This document shows positions 11,861 through 38,106 of a DNA stretch of 42,405 nt, in pieces. The position numbers and the translations under genes were made by a program. The stretch comes from Candidatus Angelobacter sp. Gp1-AA117. GTDB taxonomy: Bacteria; Acidobacteriota; Terriglobia; Terriglobales; Acidobacteriaceae. The notes beneath the pieces were generated by a model that made no database searches, was not told the DNA's origin, and was given only the letters and a program-made list of their open reading frames with translations. The DNA is taken from positions 1-42,405 of the forward strand of contig QHVI01000081.1 of NCBI GenBank assembly GCA_003223515.1, given 5' to 3'. The number at the start of each line of letters is the position of its first letter. Within the stretch, counting starts at the first letter, position 1.

Positions 11861-12080
11861 GCACAGCCGAGGGCGGCTAATGTCACTTACTTTAGGGACA
11901 CCATGCTGTATCCCAATGAGAGATGTCATTCCGAACGCCCGTTAAGCTCACGCGCGTTTTCTTCAGCGCGTGAGTAGGGCGGAGGAATCTGCCCCGCTGC
12001 TGCCCGCCCGTGCGAAAATTCTTTTAAATTCATGCTCGAATGTGCAAAGTAAGTGACATTAGCCGAGGGCGGCTGTGCTA
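11861..12080 (+). mobile_element. MITE-like element, copy 1
   Basis: Perfect 17-bp terminal inverted repeats (CTAATGTCACTTACTTT at 11877-11893; reverse complement at 12046-12062) enclose a non-coding interior of about 150 bp. The interior contains a CTCACGCGC/GCGCGTGAG hairpin. The inverted repeats are flanked by the 10-bp direct repeat CCGAGGGCGG (11867-11876 and 12063-12072). Near-identical copies lie at 32204-32420 and 37890-38106 in the opposite orientation. A fourth element with the same ends but another interior is at 28794-28993. Confidence 0.75.
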
Positions 12081-12091
12081 CACGAGCTTCG

Positions 12092-13660
12092 TTATTTTTG
12101 GCGTTCGTGCGTAGGTGGCTCCGGTCTTGAGGCAGCGGGTGGCGCGGCTGCGGTCGGAGGTGCGGCCCGCATGGGCGCGGGTTCACTGCGAGGCGCCGGT
12201 GCCGGAGTTATAGGCATAGGCCTGGGTGCAGGAGATGGCGGTGGCGCTACGGTAGGCGCGGGGCCCGTTGATCTTGCGGGTGGCGCGTCGGCTCTGGGCT
12301 GCTGCATCGGCATCGGCGCTGGATGCACAGGGGGCATAGGACGGTCTGTCCTTGCGGGCGGTGCTCCCACAACTCCAGCACCGGGCTGAGTATCAGCAGG
12401 CGTCATTGGCTGGCGTTGCGGTTCTGGGCGCGGTGCGTCGTGAGCGTCTCTGTCATTGCTATTGCCGCCATGGTGTTCTCTATCCCCCGGACGGCCCACA
12501 GTACCAACAGTTCCGGTTGCCGGTGGCTGCACGTTTTCATCTCCGCTATTGCCGCCACGTCCGCCGATGTTGAAGGTACCCCGGCCCCGGCCTGCGCCAA
12601 CTACTCCAGCGCCGGGAACGCTGGTTCCGGGTGCTGTACCTGCTCTAATTCCTGCGGGTGGAGAGGGTACGCGGAATCCTGCTGGAGGATTCACGATGCG
12701 CGGTACCCGTACCCAGTTAGCGAAATTTCCGGGCTGCCACACCCAGCCATAGCCGCTGACGAACACCCAATGCCCATATCTGTAGGGCATCCAGCCCCAC
12801 GGATAGGCCGAAATCCAGGTGTATCCGAATGCGGGTGAATAGGTCCAATAACCGTTCATGAAGGGGTCCCAACCAAGATTTACGTTGTTGGGACGCCAGC
12901 AGTAGCCATAGCCGGGCACGTTGTAATACTGGCCATAGTAATTGAGGTCGCTTACGCCATACTGATACGGTGATCCGGTATAGCCGGCATTCGCGTACTT
13001 GCTGATATAGTCTTCGCGCTGGGCGCTCCAGTCATCCAACTCATCTTCCTGAGCGTCTTTTTGCAGATCATATCGACCGGCGTCGAGGACATCCTGCTGG
13101 AAAGTCTCATTCTTTTTGACTGCTATTTCTTGTCCGGTGTCCGGACTCTGAAGGGAAACTTCACCTTTCCAGACCACCACTTCCACAGGCTGGGAATTGC
13201 TGGAGGTCACGCGGAAACGCGACGTCCGCTTGACAGTAATAACCCGCTGGTGGGTCCGGACTGTAAACAGGCCATCGTCATTGTGGTGTGTGATGCGGAA
13301 TTCAGCTTCGCCCTGATCGAGATCGGCAGCGGTTACGGTTGCGCCGGAAGAGATCCGCGCCAATTCAGAGAAGGTGATCTGGCTATACGGGGCCATACGA
13401 ATGGTGCTGCCATCTTCAAACTGGATTTCAGCGTAGCCATCCTGCCCGGTGCGAATCTGATCGCGCTCGATTAAAGGTGTATTGAGAGTGGCGTTCTCGT
13501 AGCCAATGGAATCGGCACTCGCGCGCTGTACGTTACCTTCGATATAGCTGAGACGCACGATCCTGACATGGGATTCTTCCTGAGCGCGGCACAAAAGTGC
13601 AGGGCACAAGACCAGCAGTGCGAGCAAGCTGAACAGCCATCTCGAAGCGCGCATATTCAC
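12092..13660 (-). CDS. Secreted FecR-domain protein with Tyr/Trp-rich and Pro-rich regions
   Basis: This encodes 522 aa with a signal peptide (MNMRASRWLFSLLALLVLCPALLCRA). Residues about 55-190 form a FecR-like domain: TGQDGYAEIQFEDGSTIRMAPYSQ with repeated beta-strand segments and VWKGEVSL. Residues about 225-325 are a Tyr/Gly/Trp-rich block with YYNVPGYGYCWRP, GYWTYSPAFGYTWIS and GHWVFVSGYGWVW. This resembles the DUF6600-type region that follows FecR domains in Acidobacteria and Proteobacteria. Residues about 330-522 are low-complexity Pro/Ala/Gly/Arg with no fold. It has no transmembrane anchor, so unlike true FecR it is a secreted or periplasmic protein. The gene ends 11 bases from the MITE-like element. 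Confidence 0.85.
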   Translation of the reverse strand: MNMRASRWLFSLLALLVLCPALLCRAQEESHVRIVRLSYIEGNVQRASADSIGYENATLNTPLIERDQIRTGQDGYAEIQFEDGSTIRMAPYSQITFSELARISSGATVTAADLDQGEAEFRITHHNDDGLFTVRTHQRVITVKRTSRFRVTSSNSQPVEVVVWKGEVSLQSPDTGQEIAVKKNETFQQDVLDAGRYDLQKDAQEDELDDWSAQREDYISKYANAGYTGSPYQYGVSDLNYYGQYYNVPGYGYCWRPNNVNLGWDPFMNGYWTYSPAFGYTWISAYPWGWMPYRYGHWVFVSGYGWVWQPGNFANWVRVPRIVNPPAGFRVPSPPAGIRAGTAPGTSVPGAGVVGAGRGRGTFNIGGRGGNSGDENVQPPATGTVGTVGRPGDREHHGGNSNDRDAHDAPRPEPQRQPMTPADTQPGAGVVGAPPARTDRPMPPVHPAPMPMQQPRADAPPARSTGPAPTVAPPPSPAPRPMPITPAPAPRSEPAPMRAAPPTAAAPPAASRPEPPTHERQK

Positions 13661-13728
13661 TCCTTGGGCTTACCTATATTAGATGACCTTAGATTGCATT
13701 AAGCCACTATTTTTCGGGCTTTACGATT

Positions 13729-13755
13729 ATTAAGGCTCCTTTGCGCAGCCTTAAT
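13729..13755 (-). terminator. Hairpin overlapping the stop codon
   Basis: ATTAAGGCT (13729-13737) and AGCCTTAAT (13747-13755) form a perfect 9-bp stem that includes the stop codon of the gene ending at 13751. No T-run follows on the minus strand, so termination is uncertain. Confidence 0.3.
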
Positions 13756-14440
13756 CTTTGCTGGGGCCAGCCTGCGCGAGAAGGCGCCTGGCGCGCTCGC
13801 GCGCAACGTGGAGAACCGAGGTGTCATCAGCAATATTCTGCAAAACCGGGGCAATGATCTGCAGCTCAGCAAGGTCTTGGTTCTGGGCGAGATCTTCCAT
13901 ACCTTTCAATTCTTTTTCCAGCCCCAGCTTGTCAAAGCGCTTTTTGAACTTGAGCTTTTCTCCGAACTGAAGCGTGTTGGAAATGCCCTGAAAGAGCCGG
14001 GTCAGCTCCTGGATGGATTTGTTTTCTGACCAGTTGTAGGTGGTGGAGTTATCCCGCGTTGCATCCTGGTAATGCAGTGTTTTGGCGCCGGTGTTCGCAA
14101 TCCTGTGCTGCTTATAGTCGAACTGACCCTGAAAATAATTGAGCTCCTGCGCCAGGTTGAATATCCGGTCGCGGCTTGGCCCGGAGATAGTGAAATGCAG
14201 GTCGTACTCCGGATCGTCAGGCTCTGCTCCCGCCGCAGCCCGGGTCGGATTGCGGGAGACATAATGCGCAGCTCCCAATGCATCCACAGTGATGGTGTAG
14301 TTCTGGGGCGTAGCTGCTTCCCAGTAAAGATCAAAGGATAGAGTGGGTACGGGCGAGCTCTGCGACTGATTCTGGTACTGGGCCAGAAGCGCAGTCATGC
14401 CCAGCACGCAAAGAATGAAAACGCAGCGCCAGTATTTCAT
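13751..14440 (-). CDS. Secreted protein of unknown function downstream of ruvC
   Basis: This encodes 229 aa. A signal peptide occupies about residues 1-20 (MKYWRCVFILCVLGMTALLA). The mature part begins with a beta-rich region (VPTLSFDLYWEAATPQNYTITVDALGAAHYVS), then an alpha/beta section with DPEYDLHFTISGPSRDRIFNLAQELNYFQGQFD. The C-terminal half is strongly helical and charged (QFGEKLKFKKRFDKLGLEKELKGMEDL...). I recognise no catalytic motif. The start ATGA overlaps the ruvC stop, giving translational coupling although the protein is exported and RuvC is cytoplasmic. This may be only a compact gene order. Confidence 0.78.
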   Translation of the reverse strand: MKYWRCVFILCVLGMTALLAQYQNQSQSSPVPTLSFDLYWEAATPQNYTITVDALGAAHYVSRNPTRAAAGAEPDDPEYDLHFTISGPSRDRIFNLAQELNYFQGQFDYKQHRIANTGAKTLHYQDATRDNSTTYNWSENKSIQELTRLFQGISNTLQFGEKLKFKKRFDKLGLEKELKGMEDLAQNQDLAELQIIAPVLQNIADDTSVLHVARERARRLLAQAGPSKD

Positions 14441-14940
14441 GAGGGTGCAGTTTGATATCTGCTCAAAGTTGTAGCTGTATGGATATGACAGATGGCGATG
14501 GCCAGGGCGTCGGCAGCGTCAGTAGGTTCCGGGACTACGGGCAATTTCAGCAGGCGCATGACCATCTGCTGCACCTGATGTTTTTCCGCCCTGCCGTAGC
14601 CTACCACGGATGATTTGATGGAAAGCGGCGAGTACTCCGCAACTTCCAGCCCGCAGGATGAAGCTGCCAGCATGGCTACACCGCGCACCTGCCCCAGCTT
14701 GAGCGCCGACTTCACGTTCACCGCATAAAACACATCTTCAATGGCCACCATCCGTGGCTGGTGTTCGGCGATAATTGCAGTAAGCGACGAAAAAATCTGC
14801 TGGAGCTTCAAGGCCATGGGATCGCGTGGCTTCAGCTTGATAGCTCCGGCAGTGCAGCAGACCAGTTCGCGATTGGCCAGTTGCTCTACCACGCCGTAAC
14901 CGGTGTACACACTGCCGCAGTCGATACCCAGGACTCTCAT
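14437..14940 (-). CDS. ruvC: Holliday junction resolvase RuvC
   Basis: This encodes 167 aa from the ATG at 14940; a TTG two codons upstream is possible. RuvC resolves four-way junctions with the RuvAB helicase during recombinational repair. The RNase H-like active-site acids are visible: Asp7 (GIDCGS), Glu68 (VAIEDVF), Asp141 and Asp144 (TDAADALAIAICH). VNVKSALKLGQVRG and YSPLSIKSSVVGYGRAEKHQV are the conserved DNA-binding segments. Length matches the family. ruvA and ruvB are not in the window. The downstream gene overlaps by 4 nt. The upstream region is a short dispersed repeat. Confidence 0.95.
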   Translation of the reverse strand: MRVLGIDCGSVYTGYGVVEQLANRELVCCTAGAIKLKPRDPMALKLQQIFSSLTAIIAEHQPRMVAIEDVFYAVNVKSALKLGQVRGVAMLAASSCGLEVAEYSPLSIKSSVVGYGRAEKHQVQQMVMRLLKLPVVPEPTDAADALAIAICHIHTATTLSRYQTAPS

Positions 14941-14962
14941 TGGCAATCAGTTTAGCGCATTT

Positions 14963-14991
14963 CACCGCAAAGGACGCTAAGGACGCAAAGG
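14963..14991. repeat. Short dispersed repeat (GACGCWAAGG units)
   Basis: ACCGCAAAGGACGCTAAGG followed by ACGCAAAGG contains imperfect 10-bp tandem units of the same family as the unit at 11632-11660. It fills the gap between ruvC and the YbdD-like gene. Confidence 0.45.
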
Positions 14992-14992
14992 T

Positions 14993-15169
14993 TCAGCAGC
15001 AGCGAGGCTTTGTCGCCATGCTTGTTTCCCGTTCACGCTGAAATTGACGGTAGCTTTCTACTGAAGCCACGCTGTTGGTGCGCAGCAGGAAACGCTGGTA
15101 GGCGTTCTCGTCGAAGATTTCGCGCAACACGGCTAACAGAGTCTTGAAGAATTCGCGAAGCGTTCTCAT
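14993..15169 (-). CDS. YbdD/YjiX-family small protein (CstA partner)
   Basis: This encodes 58 aa from the ATG at 15169, which overlaps the cstA stop (ATGA). The sequence MRTLREFFKTLLAVLREIFDENAYQRFLLR followed by SVESYRQFQRERETS matches the DUF466/YbdD family. These proteins are about 65 aa and encoded next to CstA-type transporters, where they are needed for transport activity. It is basic and helical, with no transmembrane segment. It ends in KPRCC, inside or next to a short repeat. The in-frame extension upstream of 15169 is cstA read out of frame. Confidence 0.85.
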   Translation of the reverse strand: MRTLREFFKTLLAVLREIFDENAYQRFLLRTNSVASVESYRQFQRERETSMATKPRCC

Positions 15170-17238
15170 GCGGGCTCCTCCGTGGCATAGCGTGTGGAAA
15201 CAAAGGGTGCTTCTTTGATCTCGGCCTGCTTGCGTCCGGAGATCACGCTGATCCACTGCAAGGCTGACTCCACTACTACCACCGCTACCAGCACCAGCAG
15301 GAATCCGGCGACTACGGCATCGAGCCGGTCATTGAAGATTCTGCGGGGCAGATCTTTCATCTGGCCTGCGATCTGGTCTGCGGCAAGCGGATGCGAGTTT
15401 GCCAACTGGTTGGCATGGGCGAGCAAGCCTATAAGGGGATTGGAATGAAAAATCTTTTGCCAGGACGCGGTGAAGGTTACGGCCACGAGCCAGCAGAGCG
15501 GCAGCAGCGTGACCCACATGTAGCGCGCGCGTCCCATCTTCACAATGATGGTTGTGGCCACGCACAGAGCCACGGCCGCCAGCAACTGGTTACAGATGCC
15601 AAAGAGCGGCCAGAGAGAATTGATACCGCCCAGAGGGTCCTGAAGTCCCTGCCAGAGGAAGTAGCCCCATGCGGCAACGACCAGCGCGCTGGTCACAAGA
15701 ATGCTTGGATACCAACTGGTGCGGCCCATCGGTTCCCAGATATGGCCGAGCGCGTCCTGCACCATGAAGCGGCCGACACGTGTGCCGGCGTCGAGCACGG
15801 TAAGAATGAAAAGCACTTCAAACATGATGGCGAAGTGGTACCAGAGGGCTGTCACGGCGGAGCCGCCCAGGCTGGCGGAAAAAATTTTGGCCATGCCCAG
15901 CGCAAATGCAGGAGCGCCGCCGGTGCGGAAGAAGAGTGTCTTTTCGCCCACGGAGCTGGCCAGGTGATCCATCTCGTCAGAAGTGACCGGGAAGCCCCAA
16001 TTGGTGATGGTGACTACCGCTGCCTGAGGCGTCTGGCCAACCATGCCGGCGCCGCTGTTCACGGCGAAGTAAGCGCCGGGTTGAAGAGTGCAGGCGGCGA
16101 TTATGGCCATCACCCCGACGAGTGATTCGGCCATCATGGCCCCGTAGCCGACCATGCGGGTCTGTGGTTCGCGGGCAATCATCTTGGGCGTGGTGCCGCT
16201 GGAGATGAGCGAATGAAAGCCGCTGATGGCGCCACAGGCTACGGTGATAAAGGCAAATGGAAAGACGCTTCCGGCAAAGACCGGGCCGGTGCCATTGATG
16301 AAGCGGGTGAGGGCGGGCATCTGCAGGGTCGGACGGACCAGCACAATTCCCAAGGTCAGGATGACAATGGTGCCGAGTTTGACGAAGGTGCTCAGATAAT
16401 CACGCGGGGCGAGAAGGAGCCAGACAGGCAATGCGGAAGCTGCAAACCCGTAAAGAATGATCAGTGCTGCCAGCGTGGCGCCGCTGAGCGTAAAGATGTT
16501 TGCCAGGCTGGGGGACTGCGAAACCCATTGTCCGCCGAGGATGGCGAGCAGCACCAGAATGAAGCCGAGGATGGATGCTTCCAGCACCTTGCCCGGACGG
16601 AGATAGCGCAGATAAATCCCCATCAGTATTGCGATGGGAATGGTCATGCCCACGGTGAAGGCACCCCAGGGACTGGAGCGCAGCGCGTTGACAATGATGA
16701 GCGAAACTACCGCCAGCAGGATAATCAGGATGCTGATGACGGCGATAAATGCGACGGTTCCGGCAACCTTGCTGACCTCGTCGCGGGCCATCTGTCCGAG
16801 TGATTTGCCATCGCGGCGGACGGAAAACGCCAGGATGATGAAGTCCTGAACGCAGCCACCGAAGACCGCTCCGGCGAGAATCCAGAGCGTTCCCGGCAGA
16901 TAGCCGAATTGGGCGGCCAGCACCGGACCAACCAGCGGCCCGGGGCCGGCAATGGCGGCGAAGTGGTGGCCAAAGACATACCATTTGTTGGTGGGAATGA
17001 AATCGCGTCCGTTCTCAAGACGCTCGGCAGGAGTGGCGCGCAGGGAATCGAGGGTGAGCACTTTGGCCGCCAGAAACTTGCTGTAAAACCTGTAGCCCAG
17101 CGCATAGCTGCACAGGGCGGCAGCCACCAGCCACATGGCATTGATTGCCTCTCCGCGATGCCAGGCAATGGTGGCCAGCGAAAGCGCTCCTAAAGCCGCA
17201 ACGGCCATCCAGAGAAAGACTTTAGCCACACGTTTCAT
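15166..17238 (-). CDS. cstA: CstA-family carbon-starvation transporter (pyruvate/peptide)
   Basis: This encodes 690 aa from the ATG at 17238; a GTG three codons upstream also exists. It is a large inner-membrane carrier with more than 15 hydrophobic segments. The family signature is present: NGRDFIPTNKWYVFGHHFAAIAGPGPLVGPVLAAQFGY, in short pieces HHFAAIAGPGPLVGP. Others are GGCVQDFIILAFSVRRDGKSLG and the C-terminal GTRVGRFMVQDALGH. E. coli CstA and BtsT import pyruvate or peptides. This protein could do either; the sequence does not decide. The coupled downstream YbdD-like gene fits the usual cstA-ybdD pair. Upstream sequence contains only a weak ribosome binding site. Confidence 0.93.
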   Translation of the reverse strand: MKRVAKVFLWMAVAALGALSLATIAWHRGEAINAMWLVAAALCSYALGYRFYSKFLAAKVLTLDSLRATPAERLENGRDFIPTNKWYVFGHHFAAIAGPGPLVGPVLAAQFGYLPGTLWILAGAVFGGCVQDFIILAFSVRRDGKSLGQMARDEVSKVAGTVAFIAVISILIILLAVVSLIIVNALRSSPWGAFTVGMTIPIAILMGIYLRYLRPGKVLEASILGFILVLLAILGGQWVSQSPSLANIFTLSGATLAALIILYGFAASALPVWLLLAPRDYLSTFVKLGTIVILTLGIVLVRPTLQMPALTRFINGTGPVFAGSVFPFAFITVACGAISGFHSLISSGTTPKMIAREPQTRMVGYGAMMAESLVGVMAIIAACTLQPGAYFAVNSGAGMVGQTPQAAVVTITNWGFPVTSDEMDHLASSVGEKTLFFRTGGAPAFALGMAKIFSASLGGSAVTALWYHFAIMFEVLFILTVLDAGTRVGRFMVQDALGHIWEPMGRTSWYPSILVTSALVVAAWGYFLWQGLQDPLGGINSLWPLFGICNQLLAAVALCVATTIIVKMGRARYMWVTLLPLCWLVAVTFTASWQKIFHSNPLIGLLAHANQLANSHPLAADQIAGQMKDLPRRIFNDRLDAVVAGFLLVLVAVVVVESALQWISVISGRKQAEIKEAPFVSTRYATEEPA

Positions 17239-17247
17239 GATTAGCAC

Positions 17248-17585
17248 CTAGCCGTCAGCAACTAGCAATTAATTGTTTGCTGTAAGAGTCTACGAATTGC
17301 CATCACAGGTTTCAACCGGAGAAAGATATTTGCCGCTGATGAACGCCGCGCAGCCGAGCCACAACTAAAACCTTTAACCACAGCGCGGCAGGCCGCAACC
17401 AAACGGCAAAACCTTGGCAACACAGAGGAACAGAGTAAGCAGAGGCAATAAGAATTAAAACCTTAACCACGGAGACACGGAGAACACTGAGACACAGAGA
17501 AAAACTAAGAATCCGGCACGGTTGCGGCTAATCCTGGTTTGACTCCTGAGTTTCTGAATGCATCTAACCATTGAGAGGATCAATC
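17248..17585. repeat. Repeat-filled intergenic region upstream of the FN3-like gene
   Basis: This stretch has no gene. From about 17361 to 17503 it contains AACCACAGCGCGGCAGGCC, GCAACACAGAGGAACAGAG and AACCACGGAGACACGGAG units of the dispersed ACCACAGAGG-type repeat. The start side (17241-17275) has several TAGCA/CTAGC words resembling the GCTAA-type tracts at 28338-28408 and 38176-38213. A GAGAGGAT ribosome binding site precedes the gene at 17586. Confidence 0.45.
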
Positions 17586-18614
17586 ATGAAGAAGACCCTG
17601 GCCACAGGTTTGCTGATTGTTGTGATGGGCCTGTGGTGTGTCGCGCAGACCAGCACAAACGGGCAGGGAGATGGCTTGCAGATCACTCATGGTCCAGTTG
17701 TGGAAACCGTCTCCGATACAACGGCACAGATCGCATGGTCTACCAACGCAAGCTCAGGAACACTGCTGCGCTACGGCACCGATCCTAACCATCTTGACCA
17801 GAAGGCCGGCATGCCCTGGGGTGCGATTACTCATCGGGTAGAGTTGAAGAACCTGAAGCCGGGTGTCACTTATTATGCGCAAGCTGTCTCGGACCAGGGA
17901 AAGGGAAGCGGCGCAACCATCGAGTCGCAACAAATCTCGTTTCAAACCAAGGAGGCGAGAATGTCCACGGCCAGCGTTGCGGCCCCAAGCACTCCGCCGG
18001 TTACGCTGATGGCCGGGCCTATACCGCAACTGGTGAAAGATACTTCAGCGCAAATCTGGTGGCTGCCGAGTTCGATTGATCCTGCGGCCAAACTTATCTA
18101 TGGAAGCAATCCGGCGAATATGAATGTGCGTGTCCCGGCAACTCCTGAGAGCAACGGGAGCGGCAGCGAGGTGGCCCAACTGAGCAATTTGCAGCCGGAC
18201 ACGACCTATTCGTATCAGATTCTAGGACAGAACGGCGCTGTGATTGCCAGTGGACAATTCAAGACCGAAGCTGCGAACTACGCAGCCAATAAGAACCTGT
18301 GGATCACCAAAGGCCCGGTGCTGGAGATGATTGGCAGCAACAGCGTGGTAGTGGCCTGGTCTACAAATATGCGCTCCGGCAGCGCCGTGCATTATGGGAC
18401 TGATCCGAATGTTCTGAACCAAACGGCTAGCGCCTCGTGGGGACAAGAGACGCACAGGGTGACCATCAACACCCTGAAAGCCAACACCAAATATTATTTT
18501 CAGGTGGAGTCCACACCGGCACAGGGCACGAATACTCAGGCGCAAAGCCAGCCTGCACCGTTCCAGACGGTACCGGAGGGGCATGCGGCGATCAGGAACA
18601 TTCAGCCCAAGTAG
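17586..18614 (+). CDS. Secreted protein with three fibronectin-III-like domains
   Basis: This encodes 342 aa from the ATG at 17586, 8 nt after GAGAGGAT. A signal peptide (MKKTLATGLLIVVMGLWCVA) is followed by three beta-sandwich repeats. Domain 1 is about residues 35-120 (ITHGPVVETVSDTTAQIAWST, then VELKNLKPGVTYYAQAV). Domain 2 is about 135-225 (MAGPIPQLVKDTSAQIWW..., LQPDTTYSYQIL). Domain 3 is about 238-325 (ITKGPVLEMIGSNSVVVAWST, then LKANTKYYFQVES). Domains 1 and 3 share RYGTDPNHL/HYGTDPNVL and are probably an internal duplication. This layout resembles the N-terminal domain of purple acid phosphatases without the metal-binding catalytic part. No enzyme activity is visible; a binding or adhesion role is a guess. 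Confidence 0.85.
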   Translation: MKKTLATGLLIVVMGLWCVAQTSTNGQGDGLQITHGPVVETVSDTTAQIAWSTNASSGTLLRYGTDPNHLDQKAGMPWGAITHRVELKNLKPGVTYYAQAVSDQGKGSGATIESQQISFQTKEARMSTASVAAPSTPPVTLMAGPIPQLVKDTSAQIWWLPSSIDPAAKLIYGSNPANMNVRVPATPESNGSGSEVAQLSNLQPDTTYSYQILGQNGAVIASGQFKTEAANYAANKNLWITKGPVLEMIGSNSVVVAWSTNMRSGSAVHYGTDPNVLNQTASASWGQETHRVTINTLKANTKYYFQVESTPAQGTNTQAQSQPAPFQTVPEGHAAIRNIQPK

Positions 18615-18704
18615 CGCGCAGCCGGACACATTCTCGTCAACCCTGAGACTCAGGCCAGCTTAAACAGTTTATGATTACCGCTATGGGCGCACAGGACGCC
18701 AAGG

Positions 18705-18735
18705 AATCTACGCGAATCATTTGTGATTCGTAGAT
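18705..18735. repeat. Inverted repeat between convergent genes
   Basis: ATCTACGCGAATCA and TGATTCGTAGAT can pair across a TTTG loop with one bulged base. It lies between two convergent genes. It has no T-run and may be a bidirectional terminator or a repeat. Confidence 0.3.
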
Positions 18736-18859
18736 CCAGTCATTGGATGAGCTGAACTGTCCCAATCCGATCAGCGTTCATCAGCGCTATCAGCGGCACG
18801 AACGTCTCAGCCAGATAGCATTCAAGGTTCACACGAATGATTACGGGCTGAGTGCTGAA

Positions 18860-28784: not shown

Positions 28785-28793
28785 TCGGTTCAG

Positions 28794-28993
28794 GGGCCGG
28801 GTGCCTAATGCCACTTACGTTGCGTGTAAAAGCCGTGTCGCCCCTAATGGGGCTTGGATCGTCGTTTGGTCTTAATTCCCGGCGCTTACGCGCCGGGCTA
28901 ACTTCTTTCGCCCGCGTTGCGGGCTATTTATTGAAAATCCTGAATTCCGGTCGGGTGTTCAGCTCTTAAGTAAGTAGCATTGGGCCGGGTGCC
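28794..28993 (+). mobile_element. MITE-like element, copy 4 (divergent interior)
   Basis: TAATGCCACTTAC (28806-28818) and GTAAGTAGCATT (28970-28981) are the same terminal inverted repeat as copies 1-3, with one mismatch. The flanks are a perfect 12-bp direct repeat, GGGCCGGGTGCC (28794-28805 and 28982-28993). The interior is unrelated to copies 1-3. It holds three hairpins: GCCCC-TAAT-GGGGC (28840-28853), CCCGGCGC-TTAC-GCGCCGGG (28878-28897) and GCCCGC-GTT-GCGGGC (28910-28924). There is no ORF. Confidence 0.65.
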
Positions 28994-30891: not shown

Positions 30892-30935
30892 ATGGGTAAA
30901 TTGGTGAATTACCAAATTACCCATTTACCAATTTC
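30892..30935. repeat. ACCCATTTACC-type repeat, copy 2 (inverted pair)
   Basis: ATGGGTAAATTGGT, GAATT and ACCAAATTACCCAT form a near-perfect inverted repeat of about 14 bp just upstream of the GNAT start codon, then ACCCATTTACC repeats the unit. The same words occur at 28749-28784 and 32129-32172. It could affect expression of the downstream gene. Confidence 0.55.
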
Positions 30936-30939
30936 TACC

Positions 30940-31629
30940 ATGCATCCTCTCGACACTCCGGTGTGGTCGGCCTTGACGACTTGTCAGGCTGATGTGGCTT
31001 TGGGAAGTCAAATTGCGCGGCGATTTCCTCCGCAAATGGCGGCGCATGGGGCATTGGCAGAACTCACGGCGGAGGCATATGAGGCGCTCAGCCGGATTTC
31101 GCTGGAGCCGGTGGGTCTATTTTTTCCTGGACCGCCGCAATTGCCTGCGGGCTGGATGATCACGCGGCACATCCGGATGTTCCAGATGGTTCATGAGCGC
31201 AAGCGTGTGCCGCAGATTCAGCTTGCACCCGAGGCGCGGATCGTCGAGCTGAGCGAGAATGACATTGCCGGGATGAGCGGGATTTATGCTCTCACCCGGC
31301 CGGGTCGCACCATTGCGCCACGCATCCAGCAGCTAGGCCCGTTTATGGGCGTGCGTATTGAAGGCAAGCTGATAGCCATGGGTGGTCTGCGGCTGCATGT
31401 CCCTGGATATCGTGAGATCACCACGGTGGCCACGCATCCTGACCACCTCAGCCGCGGATACGCAACTGCTCTGGTGGCTGCGCTCATGCAGCGCATCTAT
31501 GACGCTGGTGAGTCTCCGTTCCTGCATGTAAGGGACGACAACACCCGGGCCATGCAAATTTACGAGCGGCTGGGGTTTGCAAAGCGGATGCAGTTCGATT
31601 ATGGAGTGTGCAGGCAATGTTCCTTGTGA
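30940..31629 (+). CDS. GNAT-family N-acetyltransferase
   Basis: This encodes 229 aa from the ATG at 30940 (MHPLDTPVWSALTTCQ). An upstream in-frame start at 30862 would run through the inverted repeat and is less likely. The N-terminal half (about 10-110) is a variable substrate domain. The C-terminal acetyltransferase core shows MGVRIEGKLIAMGGL, then VATHPDHLSRGYATALVAALMQRI (acetyl-CoA pyrophosphate loop, motif A), then LHVRDDNTRAMQIYERLGF (motif B). This is the FR47-like subgroup. The acceptor is unknown. It is the last gene before a dispersed repeat. Confidence 0.88.
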   Translation: MHPLDTPVWSALTTCQADVALGSQIARRFPPQMAAHGALAELTAEAYEALSRISLEPVGLFFPGPPQLPAGWMITRHIRMFQMVHERKRVPQIQLAPEARIVELSENDIAGMSGIYALTRPGRTIAPRIQQLGPFMGVRIEGKLIAMGGLRLHVPGYREITTVATHPDHLSRGYATALVAALMQRIYDAGESPFLHVRDDNTRAMQIYERLGFAKRMQFDYGVCRQCSL

Positions 31630-31632
31630 ATT

Positions 31633-31735
31633 AACCACAGCGTGGCGGGCCACAACCAAAGGCTTTAACCGCAGAGGACGCAGAGGTAACAAAAGTAGTT
31701 GATGTGTATTGAATTTGGCGGTGTGTTGGGCCCTA
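31633..31735. repeat. Dispersed repeat copy (partner of 11596-11720)
   Basis: AACCACAGCGTGGCGGGCC, GCAGAGGACGCAGAGG, AACAAAAGTAGTTGATGTG and TTTGGCGGTGTGTTGG match the copy downstream of ksgA almost base for base. It begins 4 nt after the GNAT stop codon. Confidence 0.65.
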
Positions 31736-31740
31736 TGGAC

Positions 31741-31760
31741 CGCAGCCGAGAGTGGCTGCG
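31741..31760. repeat. Solitary REP-like palindrome (possible unoccupied target)
   Basis: CGCAGCCGAGAGTGGCTGCG is a near-perfect palindrome (CGCAGCC/GGCTGCG around GAGAGT). It is the same shape as the flanks of MITE copies 1-3, which read CGCAGCCGAGGGCGGCT to the left and CCGAGGGCGGCTGCG to the right. Confidence 0.5.
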
Positions 31761-31792
31761 CTCTATAAAGATCCTGGAGTATTCGCAAGTTT

Positions 31793-32137
31793 ATGTTTCC
31801 TCGTATTCGCGCCACCATTCTGAAAATTCCACGAGGTAAAGTTTCGACCTATGGAGCAGTCGCACGAGCCGCGGGGTTTCCGGGTGCGGCGCGGCAGGTG
31901 GTGTGGGCGCTGCACAAATCGCATGGTCTTCCATGGCACCGGGTGGTTGCAGCCGGCGGACGCATTGCGCTGCCGGGCGAAGCAGGCATGGAGCAGCGGT
32001 TCCGGCTGGAGAGCGAAGGTGTGCTTTTCAGCGGCAGCCGGGTGCGAATGAAAGAGCATGAATTTCAATTCAAGAGCGTGGCACGCGCTAAGACCAAATC
32101 AAAACAGTCGAATTCGCGCCGGAAGAAAATTGGGTAA
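31793..32137 (+). CDS. Alkyltransferase-like (ATL) DNA repair protein
   Basis: This encodes 114 aa. The AGT/MGMT DNA-binding fold is clear: FPRIRATILKIPRGKVSTYGAVARAAGFPGAARQVVWAL, in pieces RGKVSTYGAVARAAG and ARQVVWAL. At the active site the usual PCHRV reads PWHRV, with Trp48 in place of the methyl-accepting cysteine. This is the defining feature of ATL proteins, which bind O6-alkylguanine and hand the lesion to nucleotide excision repair instead of transferring the alkyl group. uvrC is 6 kb away. The basic tail (KTKSKQSNSRRKKIG) runs into a dispersed repeat that supplies the stop codon, so the native C-terminus may have been changed. Confidence 0.92.
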   Translation: MFPRIRATILKIPRGKVSTYGAVARAAGFPGAARQVVWALHKSHGLPWHRVVAAGGRIALPGEAGMEQRFRLESEGVLFSGSRVRMKEHEFQFKSVARAKTKSKQSNSRRKKIG

Positions 32138-32172
32138 ATGGGTAAGTTGGTAAATGGGCAAATGACCCATTG
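32129..32172. repeat. ACCCATTTACC-type repeat, copy 3
   Basis: TGGGTAAATGGGTAAG, TTGGTAAATGGGCAAATG and ACCCATT are units of the family at 28749 and 30892, on the opposite strand. It overlaps the last codon and stop of the ATL gene. Confidence 0.5.
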
Positions 32173-32203
32173 TTCCAGTTTTCTCCTCGCGCCGATTTTG
32201 CCG

Positions 32204-32420
32204 CGCAGCCGAGGACGGCTAATGTCACTTACTTTGCACATTCGAGCATGAATTTAAAAGAAAATTTTCGCATGGGCGGGCAGCAGCGGGGCAGATTCCT
32301 CCGCCCTACTCACGCGCTGAAGAAAACGCGCGTGAGCTTAACGGGCGTTCGGAATGACATCTCTCATTGGATACAGCATGGTGTCTCTAAAGTAAGTGGC
32401 ATTAGCCGAGGGCGGTCGCG
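32204..32420 (-). mobile_element. MITE-like element, copy 2
   Basis: CTAATGTCACTTACTTT (32219-32235) and AAAGTAAGTGGCATTAG (32389-32405) are the terminal inverted repeats, with one mismatch. They are flanked by CCGAGGACGG (32209-32218) and CCGAGGGCGG (32406-32415). The interior matches copy 1 in inverse orientation and copy 3 in the same orientation, with small indels in the A/T tract. Confidence 0.75.
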
Positions 32421-32449
32421 ATCCATCAAGAGCTTCTATTAATTCCACA

Positions 32450-35050
32450 TTACCGCGTTACTGTCACTTGTGATTTAAAGGTCGCACCGGACGTATCCCA
32501 GCCTTGGACGACAATGACGTGCGAGCCGCTGCTGATGGATTGAAAAGTATCTACTGATGCGCTTGAGGTCTTGTAGCGCAGTGAGCCGTCGATATAGACC
32601 TGCGTCGCAGCGATGGGATACCCGGAGCGCGACACTCCCTTGATCTCTACTGTCGACGAGACGAATCCCGCCGTTGGGCTGCTGATCGTAACGAATTGCG
32701 GCCGCACTGTCACGCTGGTGCTGGCGGTAGTGGACGCGCCCAGATTATCGGTAACCGTTGCTTTCACCGAATAGATGCCGGCGGTCTTGTATTGATGAGA
32801 GGCGCTGGCGGCGTTGGCGATCGTGCCGTCGCCAAAATCGATGCTGATACCGGTAATCGTGCCGTCAGGATCGCTGGAACCTGAGGTCGATGCAGTGATG
32901 GAGCCCCCGACCAGCAGCGAGGCCGCACTGGTAGAGACAACTGCAAGCGGCGGTTTGTTGGCCACCATATTTACGGTAAGAGATTGCATGAAGCTGTGCC
33001 CGGAGCTGTCCCAGCCTTTGATGATCAGGGTATGGGCGCCGCCTGCCAGGAGCACAGTGGTATTCAGCGTGGAGGCATTGACGCTGTAGGAAAGGGCGCC
33101 ATCGACATAAATCTGCATGGCGGTGATCATGTAACCGGAGCAACCGCCGGCCACCACCTGTACCGGCAAAGTGGTTGTAATGCCATCCGATGGGCTGCTG
33201 ACGATTACCTCCGGCGACTTCACGGTGATTGTGGATGAGGCGCTGGAGGAGGCACCGGCATTATCGGTCACGGTTGCTGTTACCGTGTATACGCCCGCAG
33301 TCGAGTAGGTATGCGAAGCGGTTGGTCCGGCGGCGCTGGAGCCATCGCCGAAATTGATGCTGGCGCCGGCAATGGCGCCGTCAGGATCAGAAGAGGCAGC
33401 GGTGCTGGCGGTGATGGTGGCCGGTCCATAAGCGACAGTGGAAGAGAGGGACAGGGCAGCGATGGGAGGCTGGTTGGGTGCGGTGACCACCACGGTAGCA
33501 CTCGTCGTCGACGTAGCGCCCAGATTATCTGTAACAGTGGCCGTTACGATATAGGTTCCAGCAGCGCTGTAGACGTGCGAGGCGCTGGAGGCGCTTATGC
33601 CGGCGCTGCCATCGCCGAAATTGATAACCGTGCCGGCAATGGTCCCGTCAGGGTCGCTTGATCCTGCGGCAGAAGCGACGACCGTGACAGGGGCGATGCC
33701 AGATGCCGGCGTAATACTCAGCGCGGCTACCGGAGGCAGGTTGGAGAGGGTAACCGGCACGCCTGCCGACATCTTGTTAGTGATGGAAGGCCTGCCCACG
33801 GCCTGCACGAATACGGTGTAGCTCCCGGAGTTCAGAGTGAACTGTGCCAGATCCATGGACGTGGCGCCGGCAGGAGCATCAGCCAGCCACATGAGGTTTT
33901 CGCCGTCCTGAGAGATGAAAACCCTGTAATGGTCGATGGTGTTGAGCTGACCGGTAATGCTCCAGGATGCCACGGTTCCGGTGACCGAGGCGGAGATGCT
34001 CACGCAATTATCGATTCCGCTTTCGATTTCCGTGCCTTCTTCGTAATCATTCCAGGTCACGATCTGGACGCCGATCATTTGTCTGAGGCTGGAGTAATAC
34101 TTGCCATTCTCGGCCATGGTCTGGAGCCAGGTTGCTCCACACTGCTGGCCGATGACGCGGTTGGCTGTCCATGCCGCCAGCGTGTCATTGAACCCTTTGT
34201 AAGAAGATTCGAGTGAGTAAGCAGGAATCAGAGAGATGGCGGTCTTATCGTAGTAGTCAAGATAGCCCAGCGCCATGGAATTTGTAGCGCTCACGGTTTC
34301 AGGGGCGACCCAGGAGAACCCACCGTTGCTCTGGGCATAACAGAAGCCGCCGGGATTGCGGAAGATAAACAGCGGATTGCCGGGCACTGAAGCGCGGACG
34401 CGGGTCCAATCGAGGGTGTAAGCTTCATGTCCGAAGAAGAAAACCACCGGCTGATTGTTGTAGCGCAGATAAGCTGGAGAGTTTTCGTAGGTGTTGTAAG
34501 CGTAGGTGAGGTCGTTGATGAGCGTCTGCGTCAGATCGCAGCCGGCCAGCGCGGCGCAGGCCTTGAGTGAGCCCGCATCATCCATGATGGCGAAGTTGAA
34601 GCCGGGATAAAGTTCGGCTTCGTGCATCAGTATCTGGCTCGATTGATCGTAGTAAACAAAATGAGTGTTGAAGGTACCCTGTCCAAACCAGTCGATGATT
34701 GCGCCATCGAGGCCACGGCTGATCATATCCACTACCTGTTTATGGACCTGTGCGGAAGTGTTGGAGGTGTAGCCGACAACCATGTGGTCGCCAAATCCGA
34801 ACCAGGGCAGGAAATTGGTGTACATCCTGGCGCTGGAGCCGGAGTATAGGAGGTTGCGAAGCGGCAGTTTGCTGACATTACCAGCGCCGGCGTTTCCGTT
34901 GCTTTGAGCTGCGAAGGTATCGGCGGCGCTGGTATTGTTGGAGGTCTCAGCAGTTAACGTGGTGGTTGCTTTGAAAGCCGTTCCGGCAAAAGCAGCCATG
35001 GAGCAAATTAAAATAAAGAACACCAGTCGGATCTGGTAGTGTCCCCGCAC
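32450..35050 (-). CDS. Secreted GH71/GH99-like glycosidase with PKD and Ig-like domains
   Basis: This encodes 866 aa from the GTG at 35050, preceded by GGGGAGG. A signal peptide (MRGHYQIRLVFFILICSMAAFAG) and Thr/Ser linker precede the catalytic-like domain, about residues 65-360: MYTNFLPWFGFG, MISRGLDGAIIDWFGQG, FFGHEAYTLDW and VQIVTWNDYEEGTEIES. These fit the TIM-barrel GH71/GH99 superfamily (alpha-1,3-glucan or mannan hydrolysis). The tail has three PKD domains (each with SSDPDG and FGDGS/T and VTATVTDN) and two Ig-like domains that share GYPIAATQVYIDG/GYMITAMQIYVDG. The order is PKD-PKD-Ig-PKD-Ig. The substrate is not established. It is transcribed alone, near MITE copy 2. Confidence 0.85.
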   Translation of the reverse strand: MRGHYQIRLVFFILICSMAAFAGTAFKATTTLTAETSNNTSAADTFAAQSNGNAGAGNVSKLPLRNLLYSGSSARMYTNFLPWFGFGDHMVVGYTSNTSAQVHKQVVDMISRGLDGAIIDWFGQGTFNTHFVYYDQSSQILMHEAELYPGFNFAIMDDAGSLKACAALAGCDLTQTLINDLTYAYNTYENSPAYLRYNNQPVVFFFGHEAYTLDWTRVRASVPGNPLFIFRNPGGFCYAQSNGGFSWVAPETVSATNSMALGYLDYYDKTAISLIPAYSLESSYKGFNDTLAAWTANRVIGQQCGATWLQTMAENGKYYSSLRQMIGVQIVTWNDYEEGTEIESGIDNCVSISASVTGTVASWSITGQLNTIDHYRVFISQDGENLMWLADAPAGATSMDLAQFTLNSGSYTVFVQAVGRPSITNKMSAGVPVTLSNLPPVAALSITPASGIAPVTVVASAAGSSDPDGTIAGTVINFGDGSAGISASSASHVYSAAGTYIVTATVTDNLGATSTTSATVVVTAPNQPPIAALSLSSTVAYGPATITASTAASSDPDGAIAGASINFGDGSSAAGPTASHTYSTAGVYTVTATVTDNAGASSSASSTITVKSPEVIVSSPSDGITTTLPVQVVAGGCSGYMITAMQIYVDGALSYSVNASTLNTTVLLAGGAHTLIIKGWDSSGHSFMQSLTVNMVANKPPLAVVSTSAASLLVGGSITASTSGSSDPDGTITGISIDFGDGTIANAASASHQYKTAGIYSVKATVTDNLGASTTASTSVTVRPQFVTISSPTAGFVSSTVEIKGVSRSGYPIAATQVYIDGSLRYKTSSASVDTFQSISSGSHVIVVQGWDTSGATFKSQVTVTR

Positions 35051-35449
35051 ACACGCCTCCCCATCGCACGCCGCTGGCGTGCGCGGCGTAACGTTTCAAT
35101 CGTTATATTTTTCGTACATCTGCTTCACTACCGTGATTGATCGGCGGAAGCAGTTTTTGCCTGACAGGAGGAATCCCTCACATCCGGCGGAAATTTCTTT
35201 GTTGCTTGATTTGCGGCATTCTAGGCATGGAGCGGCCTTAGCCGAATTAGGCAAAACCCCCGCTTGGGGCTAAGTTTTTCACCTATAAAAAGGTCTCTGG
35301 CCGGATCTAAGCGGCGTACTGGCGAATGGACATCTCCAGGTGTGTACCAACGGACAAGGAAAATGCATTATCAAAAAACAACTCAATGGCAGCATTTCGC
35401 TTCCAACAAAGGGGTTATTTCGGCCTCCGGGGACGGTTTTATCTTTACT
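35051..35449. other. Intergenic region with a leader-like terminator hairpin
   Basis: About 400 bases between divergent genes. GCACGCC-GCT-GGCGTGC is a hairpin near the left end. CTTAGCC (35237-35243) pairs with GGCTAAG (35268-35274), followed by TTTTT. No gene is supported; a leader or small RNA is possible (see the terminator entry). Confidence 0.4.
35237..35279 (+). terminator. Candidate intrinsic terminator/attenuator before the DHp-like gene
   Basis: A 7-bp stem CTTAGCC/GGCTAAG with an inner hairpin (ACCCC/GGGGC) is followed by five T residues at 35275-35279. No plus-strand gene lies upstream within the intergenic region, so it would end a short leader RNA. Confidence 0.4.
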
Positions 35450-35710
35450 ATGAGTGAGGAACAGCACATGGGTGCGCAACCGAAAATGGAAACAACAGCG
35501 AGAATTCCTGCGGAAATCAATACCAAGCTGCGGGCCCTGGCCCACGATTTGAGCAATTCCATTGAAACCATCATGCAAGCGTCCTATCTGCTGGCACAGA
35601 TGAAGCTTGATGAGAACGCTAAAAGATGGGCCGACCTGATCGATCAGGCCGGGCGTGATACAGCTCGTATCAACCGCGAAATCCGGGACATACTTCGGGC
35701 CAGTGCGTAA
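35450..35710 (+). CDS. Histidine-kinase DHp-like helix protein without kinase domain
   Basis: This encodes 86 aa from the ATG at 35450. An ATG at 35468 has a better spaced GAGGA site and would give 80 aa; one at 35364 is also possible. The core resembles a HisKA/DHp hairpin: LRALAHDLSNSIETIMQASYLLAQMKL, with His32 in the H-box, then ENAKRWADLIDQAGRDTARINREI. There is no ATP-binding HATPase domain, receiver or membrane segment, and the gene ends with ILRASA. It may be an adaptor like a phosphotransfer helix, or an old kinase fragment. A candidate attenuator precedes it. The function is unknown. Confidence 0.6.
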   Translation: MSEEQHMGAQPKMETTARIPAEINTKLRALAHDLSNSIETIMQASYLLAQMKLDENAKRWADLIDQAGRDTARINREIRDILRASA

Positions 35711-35806
35711 CATTTTTACCGCGGAGCCACAACCAAAAACCTTATCGCTGATGACACAGATGACGCTGATTCACACTGATCCATTGCAGTGAGGAAAGTG
35801 CATGCC
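35711..35806. repeat. Intergenic repeat (ACCGCGGAGCC / CGCTGATGACACAGATGACGC)
   Basis: ACCGCGGAGCCACAACC is a fragment of the ACCACAGCGTGGC family. CGCTGATGACACAGATGACGC repeats GATGACRC words also found near 18766-18800 and 37747-37780. Confidence 0.4.
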
Positions 35807-36559
35807 CTAAGCGGCGCGCAATCCGTAGGAGTGCGCGCGCAGAAAATCCTGAGCATTGCGGTAGCCTTCCAGGGTTCCCACATCCATATAGGTTTCGCCG
35901 CTGAATTTTCCTTTCACAATGTTTCCGGCGGTGATGAAGGCATTCAGCAGGTCGCCCAGATATTCATCGGCACGGTGACGGGCCTCCCACAGCAGTTTCA
36001 ACCGGTGGAATGATTCTCCGCGCGCGGTGACCGCACCCCAGATCCAGTGAGAACGGGCGTCCTTCTTCTTGACCTGTACTTCCTGCACATAACCCAGATC
36101 GTCACAGTTGACGGCGTCGAACACCGAAGGATTGGTGACCGGGAAGAGCACGAGATTGACATCCGCTTGAGTGAGATCGAGGGCCGGCAGGTAAGCATTC
36201 TCGGGGAACCAGATGGTGTCCGGCAGGCCGATCAGAACCTGGTCGTGATGGCGGGCAAAGGGTTCGGCGCGGAAAAGGGCATCGCAAAGTCCCTGGGGCT
36301 GCTGCTGCACTACGTAGAAGATTTCAGCGGCATAGTCACGCTCGGCGTAGTACTTCACAATGTCGGTCTTTTCGGCGGAGATGACCATGCATATCTGCCC
36401 GGCCCCGGCGGCGATCATTCTCTCAACCAGATACTCGGAGACTGCTTTGGGTCGCTCAATGCCATCGACCATGCGCGAGCCAACCGGCAGCAGTTCCTTG
36501 GAGCAGCCCAAGGGTTGAATGCGCTGTCCGGCCCCGGCGGCGGGAATAATTCCAATCAT
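35807..36559 (-). CDS. Nucleotidyltransferase, glucose-1-phosphate (thymidylyl/cytidylyl) transferase-like
   Basis: This encodes 250 aa. The start ATG overlaps the preceding glycosyltransferase stop (TGATG). The GT-A-type nucleotidyltransferase fold begins with GIIPAAGAGQRIQPLGCSKELLPVG, the nucleotide-binding loop. AVSEYLVERMIAAGAGQICMVIS and LIGLPDTIWFPENAY follow, the latter holding the metal-binding Asp. The C-terminal YMDVGTLEGYRNAQDFLR is a family signature. It would activate a sugar-1-phosphate with NTP to give an NDP-sugar. It is coupled to a CgeB-like glycosyltransferase, so the pair may make and transfer one sugar for a spore-coat-like or surface polymer. Confidence 0.9.
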   Translation of the reverse strand: MIGIIPAAGAGQRIQPLGCSKELLPVGSRMVDGIERPKAVSEYLVERMIAAGAGQICMVISAEKTDIVKYYAERDYAAEIFYVVQQQPQGLCDALFRAEPFARHHDQVLIGLPDTIWFPENAYLPALDLTQADVNLVLFPVTNPSVFDAVNCDDLGYVQEVQVKKKDARSHWIWGAVTARGESFHRLKLLWEARHRADEYLGDLLNAFITAGNIVKGKFSGETYMDVGTLEGYRNAQDFLRAHSYGLRAA

Positions 36560-37659
36560 CAGGCCACCTCACTTGTCTCAAGATCCGAGGGCGAGGCAGA
36601 GCGCGCCTCTTCAAAGTATTGCAGCAACTGTTTGGCGCGTACTGCACCGCTATGTTCTTCCAGGGTGCGCTCACGGGCATGCTGCGCCATCTGTGCCAGT
36701 TCATCATCAGTCATGCGCAGAGCCGCTTCCACATCTTCTGCACTGCTCACAACCCGCAAGTCCCGGTGCAGATCAAAAAAGTAATCCAGTGCTTCCCATG
36801 CGTCGGTGATCAGCGGTGTGCCGCAGGCAGCGGCCTCAAAGAAACGTCCGGAAGGGCACCAGCCATTGCGCGCCATCTCTGCCCGCGTGATGTTCAAGGT
36901 GAGCCGAGAGGATGAGTAGAACTCAGGATGCTGATGAGGCGAAACATGCTCGAGAATGCGGATATTGGCGGGCCATTGCCAGTCCCGGGGATACATTGAC
37001 CCTGCCAGCACCAATTGCCTGGCCGGATTGCGGCGCGCCGGTTCGAGAAATAATTCATTGACTTTAGTTTGACGGTCGGGAGCATACGTTCCCATGTAAC
37101 TCAGTTCGCAGGTGAATTCAGGCGATGGCCGGCAGCGCATATACACGTCAGGGTCTACGCATCCATAGAGTGGACGGGCCATGCGCGCTCCATAATCCCG
37201 CTCCAACTGCTGCAGAACTCTTCCGCCTGTAAACGAAAGCACCAGATCAAATCCAGGAAGCTGGTCACGCCGCAGATACTCCACGCCGGTATTTTCCATT
37301 TTGGCGAGCGTGATGGGAGTGTCCAGATCGTAGAAGACGCGCAGGGGGGCCGCCAGATCCAAAACATCAGCGGAGATGCGCTGGCCTTCCGGCAGGTAGC
37401 TGGCCGTCATCACCACGTCAGACTCGGCAGCAATGCGAAGGGCATTGTTCCTGACCTGTGCCCAGTCGTAGTACAACGTAAGATCGCAATAGTCACAGCT
37501 ATAGAAATCGCGCCGGGCGCTGTAATAAGGAACATCTTTTTCAAAGAAATGGACGGTGTGTCCCATGCGGTGCAGGGCGCGGATGATGGCGCGATAAGGT
37601 GTTGCGTGGCCGTTGCCCCAGGATGAGGAGATTGTCAGCCCAAAGATGGTGATCTTCAC
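36559..37659 (-). CDS. CgeB-like glycosyltransferase
   Basis: This encodes 366 aa from the GTG at 37659, with GGTGAGG just upstream. It starts with KITIFGLTISSSWGNGHATPYRAIIRALHRMGH, the N-terminal Rossmann region of the GT4-like CgeB/DUF3880 family. The acceptor half has VVMTASYLPEGQ and FYDLDTPITL. The donor half has LSYMGTYAPDRQTKVNEL and RFFEAAACGTPLITD, where the FEAAACG motif contacts the sugar nucleotide. In Bacillus, cgeB is a spore-maturation gene; in other bacteria these enzymes modify surface glycans. The gene overlaps the nucleotidyltransferase by 1 nt, so they are co-translated. Confidence 0.9.
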   Translation of the reverse strand: MKITIFGLTISSSWGNGHATPYRAIIRALHRMGHTVHFFEKDVPYYSARRDFYSCDYCDLTLYYDWAQVRNNALRIAAESDVVMTASYLPEGQRISADVLDLAAPLRVFYDLDTPITLAKMENTGVEYLRRDQLPGFDLVLSFTGGRVLQQLERDYGARMARPLYGCVDPDVYMRCRPSPEFTCELSYMGTYAPDRQTKVNELFLEPARRNPARQLVLAGSMYPRDWQWPANIRILEHVSPHQHPEFYSSSRLTLNITRAEMARNGWCPSGRFFEAAACGTPLITDAWEALDYFFDLHRDLRVVSSAEDVEAALRMTDDELAQMAQHARERTLEEHSGAVRAKQLLQYFEEARSASPSDLETSEVA

Positions 37660-37889
37660 GAGGCCTCACCGAATGGTCTGCAAAACTGGTTGTAGCGCTT
37701 CAACTGGAATGAGATGAACAGAGATGCTCTGCTGTTGCCGGAAAACCTTACCGCTGACCCAATGGATTTATGCTGAGCGATCCGGTGTGAGGAAACCAGT
37801 GCGTCAGGAAGCGTCAGCATGCGACACATGAGGCGCTGCCACGTGGAATGGCAGTGTTTGGTCACTGCGCTCGCGGTTGAGAGGCATCA
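37660..37889. other. Intergenic region, no gene seen
   Basis: About 230 bases upstream of the glycosyltransferase. It contains GCGCTGCCACGTGGAATGGC and repeats of GATGAAC words, but no convincing ORF or terminator. It runs into MITE copy 3. Confidence 0.4.
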
Positions 37890-38106
37890 GCGCAGCCGAG
37901 GGCGGCTCATGTCACATACTTTGCACATTCGAGCATGAATTTAAAAGAATTTTCGCACGGGCGGGCAGCAGCGGGGCAGCTTCCTCCGCCCTACTCACGC
38001 GCTGAAGAAAACGCGCGTGAGCTTAACGGGCGTTCGGAATGACATCTCTCATTGGGATACAGCATGGTGTCCCTAAAGTAAGTGGCATTAGCCGAGGGCG
38101 GCTGCG
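37890..38106 (-). mobile_element. MITE-like element, copy 3
   Basis: CTCATGTCACATACTTT (37906-37922) and AAAGTAAGTGGCATTAG (38075-38091) are the inverted repeats. They are flanked by CCGAGGGCGG at 37896-37905 and 38092-38101. The outer bases complete the palindrome CGCAGCCGAGGGCGGCT...GGCTGCG. The interior is nearly identical to copies 1 and 2. Confidence 0.75.

Follow-up and report, generated by a model that had tools for sequence, protein, structure and literature searches.

Insertion of mobile elements into repetitive extragenic palindromic (REP) sequences has been described for more than one transposase family. In Sinorhizobium meliloti, copies of ISRm22, an insertion sequence (IS) of the IS4 family (subgroup IS4Sa), lie in REPs and are inserted at the axis of the palindrome, and the same source reports insertion into REP palindromes for IS1397, ISPsy8, ISPa11, ISPpu9, and ISPpu10 of the IS3 and IS110 families (PMC1525189). 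The IS4 subgroup of the IS4 family has ends of the form -AATR--------WTW and duplications of 10–13 bp, and some of its members appear to insert with a striking specificity for the arms of the target (PMC2266710). Here, we analyzed contig QHVI01000081.1 (42,405 nt; hereafter the window) of Candidatus Angelobacter sp. Gp1-AA117 (hereafter the host; genome of 6.48 Mb in 206 contigs), in which three near-identical short elements interrupt palindromes. We conclude that these are very probably miniature inverted-repeat transposable elements (MITEs) with IS4-subgroup ends, and that an IS4-type transposase of the aspartate–aspartate–glutamate (DDE) type probably moved them in trans into the centres of REP-like palindromes.

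Direct reading of the sequence confirmed the three near-identical elements and the two orientations reported in the original prediction, with copy 1 facing one way and copies 2 and 3 reversed. From TAATG to CATTA, the boundaries used for counts, copy 1 spans 11878–12061 (184 bp, plus strand), copy 2 spans 32220–32404 (185 bp, minus strand), and copy 3 spans 37907–38090 (184 bp, minus strand); with the alternative boundary CTAATG...CATTAG, they extend over 11877–12062 (186 bp), 32219–32405 (187 bp), and 37906–38091 (186 bp). Copies 1 and 3 stand between target-site duplications reading GCCGAGGGCGGC on both sides (11866–11877 and 12062–12073; 37895–37906 and 38091–38102), and those of copy 2 read GCCGAGGACGGC on the left (32208–32219) and GCCGAGGGCGGT on the right (32405–32416), with one change in each. 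An overlooked fourth element, alike in the type of its ends but different in its body, lies at 28806–28982 (plus strand; right end GTAAGTAGCATTG) between 11-bp duplications of GGCCGGGTGCC (28795–28805 and 28983–28993). Other predicted details held only in part. The 17-bp inverted repeats are perfect in copy 1 and imperfect in the other two, as the left end of copy 3 carries two changes (CTCATGTCACATACTTT) and GGCATTAG forms the right end of both copy 2 and copy 3. The motif CCGAGGGCGG, expected on all flanks, is exact on five of the six and has one change on the left of copy 2 (CCGAGGACGG), and the outer arms CGCAG/CTGCG are present at copy 3, while copy 1 has CACAG/CTGTG and the right arm of copy 2 is broken (GGTCGCG).

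At up to one mismatch, the element end TAATGYCACTTAC occurs six times in the window against 0.05 expected, a number that none of 100 shuffles gave, and CCGAGGGCGG occurs nine times against 4.66 expected, which was reached by 4 of 100 shuffles. By itself, the CCGAGGGCGG flank is unremarkable in the window; its placement at element ends is what counts. The window had also been said to contain no transposase, and this stood: genome searches with PF01609 and PF01797, the transposase families sought, gave no match on its contig, and Pfam was run on 10 window frames. The element bodies, at less than about 200 bp, are too short to hold a transposase gene.

Genome-wide, at up to one mismatch, CTAATGTCACTTAC was found at 130 places and its reversed control at 5, and TAATGYCACTTAC was found exactly at 99 places. 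The elements were counted in stretches extracted around listed matches, which cover part of the host genome (L-numbers label these loci, and G277, G316, and G380 label other genomes), and end pairs were found by script. After three of 77 end pairs were removed as composites or alternative pairings, 74 elements with ends TAATGYCACTTAC remained, falling by body sequence into three families of 54 (180–201 bp, with copy 1), 17 (187–195 bp), and 3 members (176–177 bp, with the fourth element). They are short, have terminal inverted repeats, many copies, and target-site duplications, and lack a transposase gene, as is characteristic of MITEs; a further characteristic, ends common to an autonomous element, was found in a related genus (G277, four copies) and not in the host genome. 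Across eight other genomes of the genus, the exact end pattern has a single occurrence. In five of these eight, the main-family body, mostly its positions 49–109 (GTCATTCCGA...GGAGGAATC), is a dispersed repeat with 75–91% identity, and the rest of the element has no match. Because the genus relatives share this inner stretch but are nearly without the exact ends, the main body seems to hold an older dispersed repeat that the MITE took up, and the elements themselves seem to have multiplied within the host species.

Forty-six of the 74 elements lie at the centre of one dispersed palindrome, GCAGCCGAGGGCGGCTGC, and others lie in different palindromes. The usual duplicated centre is GCCGAGGGCGGC inside GCAGCCGAGGGCGGCTGC; other duplicated centres are GCCGCCCCCCGGC (13 bp), GGCTCCAAGCC and GGCACCCGGCC (11 bp), and GGCTAAAGCC and ATCTATAGCC (10 bp). 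Duplications are exact in 35 elements (28 of 12 bp, 4 of 11 bp, 2 of 10 bp, and 1 of 13 bp), with the 11-bp cases L044 and L054 resembling 12-bp sites that a change in the end of the element has trimmed; among the other 39, the two sides differ at one position in 19, at two in 8, and at three or more in 12. We then compared left and right duplications in 46 insertions with both flanks within three changes of the main centre. They differ at 23 positions in total, against a mean of 49.7 when the right copies were dealt out anew, and 0 of 20,000 such shuffles reached 23. A non-standard variant is common to both sides in seven pairs (0.9 expected), and the variants GCCAAGGGCGGG and GCCGGGGGCGGC are each seen on both sides of the same element. 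This agreement of variants across single insertions marks the duplicated centre as a genuine target-site duplication. In the flank tabulation over genome copies that had been proposed as a check, the element is common to the copies and the wider flanks are not, and variant palindromes match across one element.

The main target also occurs without an element. Exact CCGAGGGCGG is present at 161 places genome-wide against 27 for the reversed control, element flanks counted in. Twenty stretches were sampled from the first 100 of these places, with no element end listed alongside, and counted by eye: among their 22 exact CCGAGGGCGG places, 18 are bordered by pairing arms on both sides, 3 lack arms, and 1 is an element flank. 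Among the 18, L228 gave a hit in a loose search for element ends, yet no element is visible there. The arms vary in a compensating fashion (GCGCAG/CTGCGC and GCACAG/CTGTGC), and the palindrome folds as a single strand at −13.6 kcal/mol (z = −3.9). A short palindrome in many copies, with a hairpin and element-free copies, the main target has the character of a REP. The second palindrome class in the host (class B) is GGGCTNNAGCCC. In 149 kb of host sequence sampled irrespective of elements, we found one exact CCGAGGGCGG, zero element ends, and three class-B palindromes.

A transposase gene bounded by ends starting TAATGTCACTTAC, such as the original prediction had suggested seeking, was found in G277 and not in the host. 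Among 396 genomes of the phylum, TAATGYCACTTACTT is present in four, namely, the host (43+41), G277 (12+12), G316 (6+5), and G380 (one place). Of these, G277 and G316 are members of the host's family but of a different genus, and G316 is treated here as Terriglobus albidus DSM 26559. The 12 end pairs of G277 comprise four 1433-bp ISs, which each contain an open frame of 442 aa and have 0–15 base differences from the first copy, and eight MITEs of 226 bp. Its duplications are exact and 10 bp long in 11 of 12 cases, 10 of them in GGGCTNNAGCCC palindromes and one elsewhere (L167, GGCTATATCC), and the G277 palindrome folds with a z of −4.15.

The single-frame G277 transposase is of IS4 type, matching PF01609 (2.4e-13) and the NCBIfam model transpos_IS4_1 (NF033592; 140.4 bits against a cut-off of 115), and a search of solved structures with it gave no match (best E 0.27). 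With the IS4-family motifs as defined in PMC2266710, Y(2)R(3)E(6)K was located by eye at Y305, R308, E312, and K319, and D(60–110)D(100–150)E at D128, D208, and E312, the two D residues being putatively catalytic. The G277 ends, TAATGTCACTTACTTT, agree with the IS4-subgroup signature in Table 1 of PMC2266710, and the duplications of 10, 11, 12, and 13 bp, counted from a TAATG start, agree with the subgroup range; counted from a CTAATG start, they would be 8–11 bp. These features of sequence agree with IS4-subgroup membership of the likely mobilizer. The TAATG boundary is preferred because of L132, L033, and L045 and by analogy with IS4 of Escherichia coli, and CTAATG is the less likely element start; with CTAATG...CATTAG, each duplication is 2 bp shorter and the variation is unchanged. 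In the host, candidates for a resident mobilizer were rejected: L039 is an ISAs1-type gene without TAATG ends, L042 is nearest to IS1182 but below its cut-off and likewise without TAATG ends, L040 is a 264-aa frame of IS4_1 type whose ends are different, and L041 is a PF01609 remnant without TAATG ends. Long end pairs (up to 7 kb) in the host stretches, considered as autonomous copies, were composites or pairings of neighbouring MITEs, and of four unpaired ends with another sequence, most proved to be worn MITE ends.

Orthologous loci with and without the insertion were available between G277 and G316. Four of six G277 loci have a G316 counterpart with one palindrome and no element (L166/L266, L168/L267, L170/L262, and L171/L265), aligned across the junction or on both sides of it. 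The G316 palindrome is identical to that of G277 in L171, whereas a single base is missing in L166, a single base is changed in L170, and a single outer base differs in L168; in the other two pairs (L165/L263 and L169/L264), the flanks are not colinear between the genomes. Insertion into a palindrome with duplication of its centre, as originally proposed, is therefore borne out by the matching variants, the element-free sites, and the G277 transposase with the same ends. Neither of the outcomes named beforehand as contrary to it, constant outer flanks or empty sites without the palindrome, was seen.

In the mechanism that we propose, a DDE transposase acting in trans would excise the element at TAATG...CATTA, the element ends would be joined to both strands at matching places in the palindrome arms, and repair would duplicate the centre between the cuts, whose 10, 11, 12, or 13 bp would be set by the palindrome. 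We infer a cut-and-paste route and recognition of the paired arms, and the same kind of transposase as in G277 probably moved the host copies, having since been lost from the host or left unassembled. REP palindromes are usually intergenic, so a preference for them would let the element multiply with little harm to genes, in line with 74 copies in one genome.

Several observations weigh against this mechanism. In 12 of the 74 host elements, the flanks differ at three or more positions; in some of these, halves of different palindromes are brought together, as might arise if copies recombined with one another. One full IS in G277 (L274; G277:C1:6090693–6092125) has the same centre facing opposite ways on its two sides (GGCTGAAGCC and GGCTTCAGCC), as an inversion between two copies might have left it, and L167 is at a weak palindrome outside REPs. 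The main host palindrome differs in sequence from that of G277. No IS with these ends was found in the extracted stretches, which cover part of the host genome, none of the four host PF01609 matches is bounded by TAATG ends, and the exact ends are nearly absent from the rest of the genus. No empty site was found for window copies 1 and 3 (copy 2 was not tried), as the orthologous regions compared within the genus, between ksgA and a FecR-domain gene for copy 1 and downstream of uvrC for copy 3, are too diverged. Finally, in three distant IS4-type relatives on plasmids of Singulisphaera, Acidovorax, and Nostoc, the ends are related (AATGGCACT...), the duplications measure 10 bp (Acidovorax and Nostoc) or 9–13 bp by boundary choice (Singulisphaera), and the sites are not obviously palindromic; because of these sites, palindrome preference is not shown for the whole IS4 subgroup.

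The position of the cuts was assessed in 48 insertions with exact duplications of at least 9 bp (35 from the host, 11 from G277, and 2 G316 pairs joined from contig ends), with the best dyad sought within the duplication and two bases on either side. In 41 of the 48, the midpoint of the duplication coincides exactly with that of the best dyad; one of these (L132) has no real dyad (score 0). The seven off-centre cases are L167, L273, L025, L045, the window's fourth element, and the two trimmed sites, with the best dyad tied with another in L167, L273, and L045. Palindromes with an odd centre have odd duplications, in four cases only (L116, 13 bp; L053, 11 bp; two G316 pairs, 11 bp), which suggests that duplication length may follow palindrome spacing, with the cuts measured from the arms; duplications of 10, 11, 12, and 13 bp would then correspond to centres of 4, 5, 6, and 7 bases between three-base arm ends. 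A stronger proposal, which we put forward tentatively and consider rather unlikely, is that the transposase recognizes its target by palindromic structure, possibly in the form of an extruded hairpin, and places its two cuts by their distance from the arms, whereby the target, and not the enzyme alone, would set the duplication length. If true, arm-measured cuts would account for the variability in duplication length already described in the IS4 subgroup. The series of duplications could serve to examine how a DDE transposase spaces its two cuts.

For class-B palindromes, the main rival is a plain sequence preference around GGCTNNAGCC, whereby the transposase would read a short sequence such as GGCTNNAGCC and not palindrome structure, and REPs would be targeted for containing that sequence. 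We give this explanation slightly less than an even chance. Class-B targets fit GGCTNNAGCC, low-symmetry sites retain part of it (L132, ATCTATAGCC; L167, GGCTATATCC; L176, GCTATAGCC), and a short class-B site of the host folds as a single strand no better than shuffles (z = −0.61). IS10, a member of the same family, has a symmetric sequence target. However, the main host target, GCC-GAGGGC-GGC, differs in sequence and spacing, yet is cut at its arms, and duplication length varies with palindrome spacing, albeit in the four odd-spaced cases only.

Far less probable is a larger fixed repeat (palindrome half, body, and palindrome half) copied whole, as in a bacterial interspersed mosaic element (BIME). 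Many copies are indeed nearly alike for about 20 bp of flank, as the target is itself a repeat. However, variant centres agree on both sides of one copy, the unrelated palindromes GGCTAAAGCC, GGCTCCAAGCC, and GGCACCCGGCC and the weak ATCTATAGCC are also targeted, 18 of the 22 sampled CCGAGGGCGG places have pairing arms and no element, and element-free orthologous palindromes exist in Terriglobus; the matching variant duplications and the element-free sites led us to reject this explanation. Spread by the REP machinery, a REP-associated tyrosine transposase (RAYT) of the Y1 type, as units resembling REP doublets forming hairpins (REPINs), can practically be dismissed: the host has five PF01797 matches, one of them a RAYT-like gene between class-B palindromes (L188), but Y1 transposases are not expected to give 10–13-bp duplications, in G277 these ends enclose a DDE transposase gene, left and right duplications match, and the main palindrome (up to one substitution) was not found within up to 1.5 kb on each side of the five matches.

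The RAYT-like Y1 transposase gene itself (L188:1366–1899; 177-aa frame) lies between GGGCTTTAGCCCC and GGCTAAAGCC palindromes, and gene and palindromes are likely a REP/RAYT pair of the host.

Two of the MITE families carry a described RNA. Within the fourth element of the window, the Rfam family Acido-Lenti-1 (RF01687) matches at 28878–28925 (plus strand; 44.3 bits against a gathering score of 37), which is the window's single match. Across 16 host loci, which had been chosen for containing elements, 12 of 14 matches lie in intact elements of the two smaller families; besides the window's fourth element, the RNA lies within elements of L048, L049, L051, L052, L053, L058, L116, L117, L120, and L121. 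Acido-Lenti-1 was absent from the 149 kb sampled irrespective of elements, which is a small sample, and one match just above the cut-off was found in a genus relative (L212). At L058:7543–7729, a different inverted-repeat element with ends CAATACTGTTCACT carries Acido-Lenti-1 and adjoins a TAATG MITE (7741–7925), the pair occupying one GGCTAAAGCC palindrome as if the same REP had been struck twice; ends CAATACTGTTCACT occur at 3 of 290 loci, two of them overlapping. RF01687 is listed in PMC2864571 as not cis-regulatory. In the host genome, this RNA family is seen carried within transposons, which may have spread it there.

Comparison with known systems places the element close to described ones. 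Similar to the G277 element, IS4 of E. coli K-12 has ends TAATGCC...GGCATTA and a single 442-aa frame, with a length of 1426 bp against 1433 bp, and its 12-bp duplication is within the range seen in the host and G277. Conversely, its transposase is only 27% identical to that of G277 over 401 columns, its duplication, CAGAACCAAGAT, is not palindromic, unlike the targets in G277 and the host, and the window elements differ from it in having no transposase. The target of IS231A, an IS4-family element of Bacillus thuringiensis, has symmetric arms. The IS231 subgroup, to which it belongs, shows variable duplications of 10–12 bp (PMC2266710) and differs in its CAT ends. ISRm22 shares the position in REPs but has 6-bp direct repeats, belongs to another subgroup, and is an autonomous IS, whereas the IS3 and IS110 elements that enter REP palindromes have transposases of other families, and PMC1525189 gives repeats of 2 bp for both ISPpu9 and ISPpu10 but no repeats for ISPa11. 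Among titles listed in searches on IS4-family MITEs in palindromes, REP targeting, Terriglobus REPs, and variable duplications at palindromes, none names the present element, and Figure 3 of PMC2266710 may show a related pattern. REP targeting by an IS4-family element has already been published for ISRm22, and the present element is a further, well-supported case of a known type.

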